The notes beneath the pieces were generated by a model. It saw nothing but the letters and a program-made list of their open reading frames with translations. It searched no databases and had not been told where the DNA came from. Shown here in pieces: positions 5,462 to 31,595 of a DNA stretch of 31,595 bases (within the stretch, counting starts at the first letter, position 1; each line of letters starts with the position of its first letter). Source of the DNA: Candidatus Zixiibacteriota bacterium (GTDB lineage: Bacteria; Zixibacteria; MSB-5A5; GN15; PGXB01); contig LS998015.1 of NCBI GenBank assembly GCA_900498245.1, positions 614,467 to 646,061 on the forward strand, read 5' to 3'. The position numbers and the translations under genes were made by a program.

Positions 5462-6817
5462 ATGGCCAATATTATCGGTTCGGATTTCCGGGTGGTGATA
5501 ATCGGCGGGGGCTTCGGGGGGCTGTATGCCGCCCTGTCGATGCGCCGTCTTTCGGCCCAAATTACCCTAATAGATCGCCGCAATTTCCATCTCTTCCAGC
5601 CGCTTCTGTATCAGGTGGCGACCGGGGCTCTGTCGCCGGCCGATATCGCCTCGCCGCTTCGAGCAGTCCTGAAACGCCAGAAGAACACCCGGGTGGTGAT
5701 GGGGGAAGTGGTTGATATCGATGTCGCCGGTCGGAAAGTCATATTGAGCGACGGGCAGATACCGTATGATGTTCTCATAGTCGCCACCGGGTCGCGGCAC
5801 CATTATTTCGGTCATGACAACTGGGAAAACGTGGCTCCGGGGCTGAAGACTATCGAGGATGCCACCGAAATCAGGCGGCGGATCCTTCTGGCTTTCGAAG
5901 CCGCCGAACGGGAGCGCGACCCTGAAATTATTAAGGAACTGCTGACTTTTGTCGTGGTCGGAGGCGGGCCGACCGGGGTGGAACTGGCCGGGGCGCTGGG
6001 AGAGATAGCGCATCGCGCCCTGAAAGAAGATTTCCGCCACATCAACCCGGAACAGGCGCGAATTTTTCTGGTCGAAGGATACGACCGGATTCTTATCGCT
6101 TATCCTCCGGCACTTTCCGAGAAGGCCCAAAAGGCGCTGGAGAAGAAATTCGGGGTGACGGTTATGACCCGGTCGCAGGTCACGGGCGTAGCGCCGGAGC
6201 GGGTGCAAATTAAAGCGGATGGAAAAGAGAGTTTTATTTCGGCGAGGACCATACTCTGGGCGGCCGGAGTCAGGTCATCGCGATTGGGGAAAATAATTTC
6301 GGACAAGACAGGAGCCGTTCTGGATAGAACGGGGCGGGTTAAGGTTGAGCCCGATTTGAGTGTCAAGGGGCATCCCGAAATTCTGATAATAGGTGATCTG
6401 GCCAATATTGACAACGGTCGCGGGGAGCCGCTTCCGGCGCTGGCCCCGGTGGCGATGCAGGAGGGGCGGTACATGGCGGCATTACTCAAAAAGCGTTTGC
6501 GGGGGAAAAAGTGCCGGCCGTTTCGGTTCCGCAATCACGGCACGATGGCGACTATCGGGCGGAATGCCGCCGTGGCCGATCTTGGCTGGATCCGTTTCGG
6601 CGGATATCTGGGATGGCTGGCCTGGCTTTTTATACATTTAATGTATATTGTTGAGTATGAAAACCGCCTGTTGGTGCTGGTGCAATGGGCCTGGAACTAT
6701 GTCACCGGCAACCGAACGGCGCGGCTGGTGACCGGGATGAATCCGTTCCCGTTGAAAAAGCCGAAGATCGAAAACGGCGCCGTTATGATGGAGGAAGAGG
6801 GAAATGCCAAAGATTGA
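5462..6817 (+). CDS. ndh: Type II NADH:quinone oxidoreductase (NDH-2)
   Basis: A 451-residue FAD enzyme that passes electrons from NADH to quinone without pumping protons. The FAD-binding GGGFGG motif is at residues 15-20, followed by the family-typical RRNFHLFQPLLYQVATG. The NADH-binding GGGPTG is at 167-172, and IIGDLANID is the second FAD contact. The last 75 residues contain hydrophobic stretches around GYLGWLAWLFIHLMYIVEYE, as expected for membrane attachment. The 131-base upstream gap shows no strong promoter or ribosome-binding site. Its 3' end overlaps an ArsC-like redox gene by 14 bases, so the two are co-translated. Cytochrome bd, encoded elsewhere in the window, would be a natural downstream quinol oxidase. 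Confidence 0.88.
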   Translation: MANIIGSDFRVVIIGGGFGGLYAALSMRRLSAQITLIDRRNFHLFQPLLYQVATGALSPADIASPLRAVLKRQKNTRVVMGEVVDIDVAGRKVILSDGQIPYDVLIVATGSRHHYFGHDNWENVAPGLKTIEDATEIRRRILLAFEAAERERDPEIIKELLTFVVVGGGPTGVELAGALGEIAHRALKEDFRHINPEQARIFLVEGYDRILIAYPPALSEKAQKALEKKFGVTVMTRSQVTGVAPERVQIKADGKESFISARTILWAAGVRSSRLGKIISDKTGAVLDRTGRVKVEPDLSVKGHPEILIIGDLANIDNGRGEPLPALAPVAMQEGRYMAALLKKRLRGKKCRPFRFRNHGTMATIGRNAAVADLGWIRFGGYLGWLAWLFIHLMYIVEYENRLLVLVQWAWNYVTGNRTARLVTGMNPFPLKKPKIENGAVMMEEEGNAKD

Positions 6818-7154
6818 CTGGTTGTACTATCGGCTGGGCTGAGTGACCTGCGGGAAGACGCAGGAGTTTCTTGCGAAGAACAAGATCGAGATCGGCGAAG
6901 CGGTCAGCACGCGGGCCAAGACTTTCACAGAGAAAGACGCCCTCAGGATGGCGTCCGACGCCGATCAAATCTACGCCGCCAGAGGGAAAAAAGTGGTTCA
7001 TTATGATTTGAAGAAAGAGAAACCGTCGAAGGATGATTTGAAAAAAATCATGCTTGGCCCGACCGGGAACCTTCGCGCTCCCACCATGCGCATCGGGAAG
7101 ACGGTGATTATTGGGTTTGATGAGGGGGTTTATAGGGAATTGGTGCTGAAATAG
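6804..7154 (+). CDS. ArsC/Spx-like thioredoxin-fold protein with in-frame TGA (probable selenoprotein)
   Basis: Read through TGA 6840-6842, this frame gives a 116-residue ArsC/Spx-type protein. The start MPKIDWLYYRLG leads to U13-V-T-C16, then GKTQEFL, and the C-terminal part LRAPTMRIGKTVIIGFDEGVYREL is the family's cis-Pro and terminal region. U13 sits where Spx and ArsC relatives have the redox cysteine of CxxC, so Sec is expected there. ATG 6804 is preceded by a strong GGAGGAAGAGG site at 6790-6800, whereas a start at GTG 6843 would delete the first strand and the active-site residue. Overlap with ndh implies co-expression. A SECIS-like hairpin follows the TGA. I recall a described family of ArsC-like selenoproteins, but no Sec machinery lies in this window. 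Confidence 0.8.
6840..6875 (+). promoter_or_regulatory. Candidate bacterial SECIS element following the UGA codon
   Basis: After TGA 6840-6842 the sequence can fold 6859-6865 against 6869-6875 (seven pairs including one G-U) with loop GTT. The loop G at 6866 is 24 bases after the TGA, within the range known for bacterial SECIS elements, and it sits at the loop position they require. A competing hairpin pairs 6847-6852 with 6859-6864 around loop GGAAGA, but its loop is closer to the TGA than usual. Folding was done by eye. Confidence 0.55.
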
Positions 7155-30867: not shown

Positions 30868-31305
30868 TTAGAAGGCGGCGTGGCGGAGGTTGATGCCGTG
30901 CTCCAGGTAACCCTTCAGGCAACAGAGAAAATCGGCCCAACCGAAAGTGTTGTCGGCCAGACGGGCAATGCCATGATCGTCCTTCTCCCAGCCATCCTCA
31001 ATAATCTCAACCCGCGTGACCGCCGGCGCGACCGACTCGAGGGAGATTTCAACGGTGGTCTCGTCGCCGGGCCCGCCCCATCTAAACGAAATAAACTTGT
31101 CGGTGATGACCTTAAGGGGGGTGACATCGGCTTTGGCGTCGCCGAAATCGGCCCAGCGCCAGGTGACGGTGCGGCCCTCGTCGAGGCGGCCGGTGCTGGA
31201 AGAGGTGAAATAGCGGGAGAGCTGGACGGGATCGACGATACCTTCGAAGACCTCATGGGGCGGTTTGGAGATTTTCATATGGGCTTTGACATGAAGAGGT
31301 TTCAT
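30868..31305 (-). CDS. AHSA1/SRPBCC family protein
   Basis: A 145-residue SRPBCC protein of the AHSA1-like group (Hsp90-ATPase-activator homolog-like). The N-terminal HMKISKPPHEVFEGIVDP and PVQLSRYFTSSSTG, the middle WRWADFGDAK and RWGGPGD, and the ending FLCCLKGYLEHGINLRH are characteristic. The ligand is unknown. ATG 31305 follows AAAGGAA; the same frame stays open through the tandem repeats upstream, but that part is repeat sequence, not protein. It reads towards the REP-like repeats, with copy 5 just after its stop. Confidence 0.82.
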   Translation of the reverse strand: MKPLHVKAHMKISKPPHEVFEGIVDPVQLSRYFTSSSTGRLDEGRTVTWRWADFGDAKADVTPLKVITDKFISFRWGGPGDETTVEISLESVAPAVTRVEIIEDGWEKDDHGIARLADNTFGWADFLCCLKGYLEHGINLRHAAF

Positions 31306-31375
31306 ATGGCGTTCCTTTCGGAAAAGGGGATTTATAGATATATACGAGGGAAGGAGGGGGGAAGTCAAGGGGGGG

Positions 31376-31595
31376 GCACCCCCAAACCCGAAGAGCCGCA
31401 CCGCCCGTCCCGGAGTTTGAGGGTGGCACCCGTAGAAGCACCCCCAAATCCCGAAGAGCCGCACCGCCCGTCCCGAAGTTTGAGGGTGGCACCCGTAGAA
31501 GCACCCCCAAACCCGAAGAGCCGCACCGCCCGTCCCGAAGTTTGGGGGTGGCACCCGTAGGGGCACCCCCAAACCCGAAGAGCCGCACCGCCCGT
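31376..31595. repeat. Tandem 62-63 base repeat, 3.5 copies, continuing past the window
   Basis: Units begin with GCACCCCC at 31376, 31438, 31501 and 31563 (spacing 62, 63, 62), the last cut by the window edge. Each unit has inverted ends: in the third, CACCCCCAAAC and GTTTGGGGGTG are perfect arms, and in the others one base differs. The inner part is GC-rich (CCGCACCGCCCGTCCC). So each unit is itself a hairpin. Confidence 0.85.

Follow-up and report, generated by a model that had tools for sequence, protein, structure and literature searches.

A very probable selenoprotein gene of the ArsC-related U-x-x-C family in a Candidatus Zixiibacteriota bacterium, cut short at its active site by ordinary gene calling

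Introduction

A family of small ArsC-related selenoproteins is already catalogued by NCBI as NCBIfam NF041106 (ArsC_rel_Se_1, 'ArsC family (seleno)protein'). A 2026 review describes it as a UxxC selenoprotein, named 'arsenate reductase-like protein, UxxC' (PMC13188914), and the same name is used in PMC9312934. The Sec form of ArsC known from the Sargasso Sea carries the motif UxxS (PMC1088965). The gene described here is of a known kind, because its family is already present in NCBIfam and in these reviews, and it adds a member to this previously catalogued selenoprotein family.

Results and Discussion

Gene layout and the in-frame UGA

The window, i.e. the whole stretch of DNA analysed, comprises 31,595 nucleotides. 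The following features are relevant here:

5462-6817, plus strand: type II NADH dehydrogenase gene (NDH-2), upstream, with the Pfam domains Pyr_redox_2 and NDH2_C
6790-6794, plus strand: Shine-Dalgarno sequence GGAGG, 9 nt spacing to the ATG, read directly
6804-7154, plus strand: putative Sec-containing ArsC-related gene of the NF041106 family, 116 residues plus TAG stop, with TGA translated as Sec
6840-6842, plus strand: putative Sec UGA codon, residue 13, opening the U-x-x-C motif (Cys16 at 6849-6851)
6859-6875, plus strand: SECIS hairpin, 7 bp stem 6859-6865/6869-6875, apical loop GUU 6866-6868, 23 nt past the UGA

As read from the sequence, the gene starts with ATG 6804 and stops with TAG 7152-7154, and its translation with TGA as Sec begins MPKIDWLYYRLGUVTCGKTQEFL. 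The 3' end of the NDH-2 gene overlaps this start by 14 nt and has an ordinary TGA (6815-6817) as its own stop. Since the NDH-2 gene stops at TGA as usual, there is no genome-wide reassignment of this codon.

An earlier note on this DNA had claimed a ribosome-binding site in front of ATG 6804, an in-frame UGA at the redox position of a U-x-x-C motif and a loss of the active site in ordinary gene calling. GGAGG, TGA 6840 and Cys16 were all found in place. In the mechanical ORF list the gene indeed begins with GTG 6843, immediately 3' of the TGA, and extends to 7154, so that a naive gene caller misses the active site. This ORF is what speaks for the UGA being a plain stop, with either a functional gene starting at GTG 6843 or a nonsense-mutated pseudogene. 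However, the well-placed ribosome-binding site serves ATG 6804 and not GTG 6843, and conservation across phyla extends to the 12 upstream residues, the UGA and the SECIS (see below), making both variants extremely improbable. The gene truncated at its active site by ordinary calling is now corrected, and the case indicates that a selenoprotein can be found in raw sequence by a reader without tools.

At the right end of the window (31253-31590) we observed short, near-identical tandem repeats, translated ...PEEPHRPSRSLRVAPVEAPPN..., which give long overlapping ORFs on both strands. These ORFs are probably spurious.

Family identity

The protein matches NF041106 over the full length of the model (positions 1-107 of 107) with an E-value of 9.5e-39 and 132.3 bits, compared to a curated cut-off of 85 bits. 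The U/C-x-x-C motif of the family is present at the N-terminus of helix 1 (UGA 6840 and Cys16; helix 14-25 in the model). The best Pfam match was ArsC with 18.4 bits, which is under the gathering score of 24. The Spx/MgsR model TIGR01617 reached 29.8 bits at a curated cut-off of 75 bits, and the arsenate reductase model TIGR00014 (ArsC) was absent among the family-model matches with E-values up to 10.

Homologues and the Sec/Cys column

A family member above the cut-off was detected in 18 of 132 genomes of the phylum, and 16 of these 18 members contain one internal TGA. The two stop-free matches (L031 and L035) were considered as Cys forms and rejected, their contigs starting exactly at the UGA.

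A scan of the genome collection with peptide patterns from the single sequence yielded zero relatives, the patterns being too specific. With an alignment-based scan we obtained 430 relatives and read the 80 best, which belong to Planctomycetota, Acidobacteriota, Zixibacteria, Melainabacteria/Cyanobacteriota, Methylomirabilota, Rokubacteria, KSB1, Calditrichota, Nitrospinota and others. The scan pattern is located in the C-terminal half of the protein and is therefore neutral with regard to Sec. The Sec column holds TGA in 83 and Cys in five of 88 distinct homologues, which come from about a dozen phyla; this ratio is that of a sample because the best-scoring fifth alone was fetched. As TGA is kept in 83 of the 88 and all others have Cys, neither chance nor a nonsense mutation can be its origin.

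In the alignment of 52 members the Sec column, R10, G85, G88, R91, A92 and P93 are invariant, and D5, W6, Y8, G12 and C16 are conserved to at least 90%. Conservation thus extends to both sides of TGA 6840, including the 12 residues upstream, and the TGA stands in the column of the first active-site cysteine, as had been predicted from the letters alone. The homologue alignment called for in the earlier note thereby gave a column that is either Sec or Cys. Cys16 is present in 88 of 93 rows, the remaining ones having Ser (4) or Arg (1). A few Zixibacteria members (L022/L103, L028 and L029) exhibit U-x-x-S in place of U-x-x-C, and these would require an external resolving thiol.

In one family (f19) of the same phylum we noticed a second gene of the ArsC superfamily, which is Spx-like and has an in-frame TGA (LYGKFTUTSC...LLRRPI):

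L042:1483-1815, minus strand: Spx-like gene with in-frame TGA, found also at L038, L039, L041 and L045 (genomes G125 and G127-G130)

A GCAAGAAGUUUCUUGC hairpin is located downstream of the TGA in four of these five loci. Its scores reach neither the NF041106 nor the TIGR01617 cut-off. Elsewhere in the phylum, the Spx-like relatives are free of stops. The gene may represent a Sec form of an Spx/MgsR-like protein not described so far.

The SECIS hairpin

For the hairpin downstream of the UGA, homologue sequences were aligned ungapped from the UGA, and synonymous-codon shuffles of the same genes served as control. In the stem (+17 to +23 pairing with +27 to +33) 88% of the pair cells are canonical, compared to 64% in the shuffles (z 20.6; the z values given for the SECIS overstate the significance, because related sequences are counted as independent). 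Independent of these values are the compensatory changes: several stem pairs show two-sided changes, e.g. +18/+32 (GC 60, CG 8, TA 3, AT 3), and pair +23/+27 is AT in 54 and GC in 13 sequences. Almost all Sec forms have GUU as their apical loop, and the five Cys forms have lost most of the pairing. Compared to synonymous shuffles, clearly stronger folding is confined to the initial 48 nt counted from the UGA (mean z -1.1, n = 88). With its G-U loop, a spacing of 23 nt and 7 bp the hairpin fits the published bacterial SECIS model.

The energy of the SECIS is -8.2 kcal/mol for 6857-6877, i.e. with two flanking bases per side, and -7.1 kcal/mol for the bare stem. As naked RNA, the 41-nt segment folds preferentially into a competing hairpin (6847-6852/6859-6864, +5 to +10/+17 to +22) with -11.5 kcal/mol. 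We do not regard this structure as the SECIS, because no more than 10 nt separate its loop from the UGA and because its pairing is weakly supported, with a z of 6 compared to 20 against synonymous shuffles. With the UGA in the A site it would sit inside the ribosome, freeing the conserved hairpin. The SECIS-like hairpin proposed earlier is real and conserved with compensatory changes; it had to be refined insofar as the conserved stem is 6859-6865/6869-6875, which is not the minimum-energy fold. For specialists, it may be of interest that a SECIS is demonstrated here by compensatory changes, with synonymous-codon shuffles as the control.

Sec machinery in the genome

The genome, a single contig of 3.5 Mb, contains the bacterial selenoprotein machinery whose presence the earlier note had proposed as a check: selA and selB are adjacent, and selD and one tRNA-Sec (anticodon UCA) were detected as well. 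Together, the machinery, the Sec/Cys column and the conserved SECIS support the selenocysteine interpretation of TGA 6840, and from these sequence data we infer with high confidence that the gene encodes a selenoprotein in which UGA 6840 would be read as Sec. Decoding by the ribosome would involve tRNA-Sec(UCA), SelA, SelD and SelB, the latter being recruited via the hairpin 6859-6875.

The selD gene of this genome (L008, G000:C1:438747-439673) has one in-frame TGA inside. Because of this TGA its product is probably a selenoprotein itself, as in many Sec-using bacteria.

Replacement of Sec by Cys in one clade

The five Cys forms (L106, L107, L109, L110 and L120) group as one clade (support 99/97) in a 92-row tree; this clade is nested in a Melainabacteria/Obscuribacterales group of Sec forms (support 100/97). 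The possibility that the Cys forms are a sign of lost Sec machinery was rejected, selA and selB being above the cut-off in all five genomes; a second family member was not found in these genomes. The data fit a single putative Sec-to-Cys replacement after which the SECIS decayed and the machinery was retained. The direction from Sec to Cys follows from the nesting of the Cys clade among Sec forms, the root of the tree having no independent fix. To specialists, such a tree-implied replacement in organisms that retain selA and selB may be of particular interest.

Gene neighbourhood

Among the loci compared across phyla there is no conserved neighbourhood pointing to a pathway, and no ars genes were recognised among the neighbours examined. 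An NDH-2 gene is located directly upstream in three of 81 loci, all of them from Zixibacteria. It might be that in this Zixibacteria lineage translation of the selenoprotein is coupled to that of NDH-2, a respiratory enzyme from which it would take electrons or which it would protect, a proposal we regard as very unlikely. If true, the family would be a selenol oxidoreductase with a link to the quinone pool and not to arsenic or transcription.

Fold and proposed function

The fold of the AlphaFold2 model (calculated with 52 relatives, pLDDT 94.7) is thioredoxin-like and places residue 13 at the start of helix 14-25. The best match among solved structures by Foldseek was Spx (E-value 3e-4). The highest Z values were those of Spx and an ArsC-related protein (9.2 each) and of YffB (8.9), with an rmsd of 2.7 over 86 to 90 residues (Spx: 88). 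Foldseek TM-scores of 0.5 to 0.6 indicate a moderate likeness, though the fold class is clear, and an ArsC/Spx-type thioredoxin-like fold is strongly supported by the prediction.

The residue before the cis-Pro is Ala (A92) in 52 of 52 aligned members, and Arg92 is found here in the Spx alignment. ArsC has its oxyanion-binding Arg94 at this position. The invariant Ala therefore makes a function as arsenate reductase or Spx unlikely and is a reason to doubt the label 'arsenate reductase-like'. The designation ArsC/Spx-like in the earlier note is thus borne out for superfamily and fold, by the full-length NF041106 match and by the AlphaFold2 fold, but hardly for either function.

If the protein were a true arsenate reductase of the glutaredoxin-coupled ArsC type, Sec would act as its nucleophile. 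The shared superfamily and ArsC as the best Pfam match, albeit with a score under the gathering threshold, are in line with this, as is the name given to the family in the reviews (PMC13188914, PMC9312934). Without the Arg, with U-x-x-C in place of C-x-x-S and with no recognised ars genes among the neighbours examined, such a function is unlikely.

Alternatively, the protein might be a redox-sensing transcription regulator of the Spx type, with a Sec-Cys switch and binding to the RNA polymerase alpha subunit. The U-x-x-C motif coincides with the C-x-x-C switch of Spx, and Spx is the best solved structure, tied by Z with the ArsC-related protein. However, the TIGR01617 score is far too low, Arg92 of Spx is replaced by Ala, and the position of Gly52, the glycine of Spx contacting the alpha-CTD, is a gap in the alignment. 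Furthermore, the genome has a separate, stop-free Spx/ArsC-like paralogue (G000:C1:1109279). A regulatory function of this type is very unlikely.

We prefer a selenol-disulfide oxidoreductase over both an arsenate reductase and an Spx regulator, and the U-x-x-C motif and the predicted fold make this a likely role. Sec would occupy the place of the first active-site Cys of relatives, at the N-terminus of helix 1. There the selenolate would attack an oxidised, disulfide-type substrate, the resulting mixed selenosulfide would be resolved by Cys16, and the U-C bond would be re-reduced by a low-molecular thiol or thioredoxin. Since Cys16 is so widely kept, the U-C selenosulfide is likely to be the oxidised state in most members.

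Comparison with known systems

With Spx/MgsR (TIGR01617; PDB 1z3e, 3gfk, 6gho) the protein shares the fold and the position of the redox pair; it differs in a score far below the cut-off, in Ala for Arg92 and in Sec for Cys. ArsC (TIGR00014) and its Sargasso Sea Sec form belong to the same superfamily and have Cys or Sec at the same catalytic place, whereas nearly all members of the family described here carry U-x-x-C instead of U-x-x-S, and Ala at the position of the oxyanion-binding Arg. YffB and the ArsC-related protein (PDB 1rw1, 3gkx) are the closest folds other than Spx (Z 8.9 to 9.2), but they are Cys enzymes and their identity to our protein is below 20%. With NF041106 the gene has in common the full-length match above the cut-off, the U-x-x-C motif and the Sec codon in place. 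There is no essential difference to this family, the start codon overlapping the end of the NDH-2 gene being a local detail.
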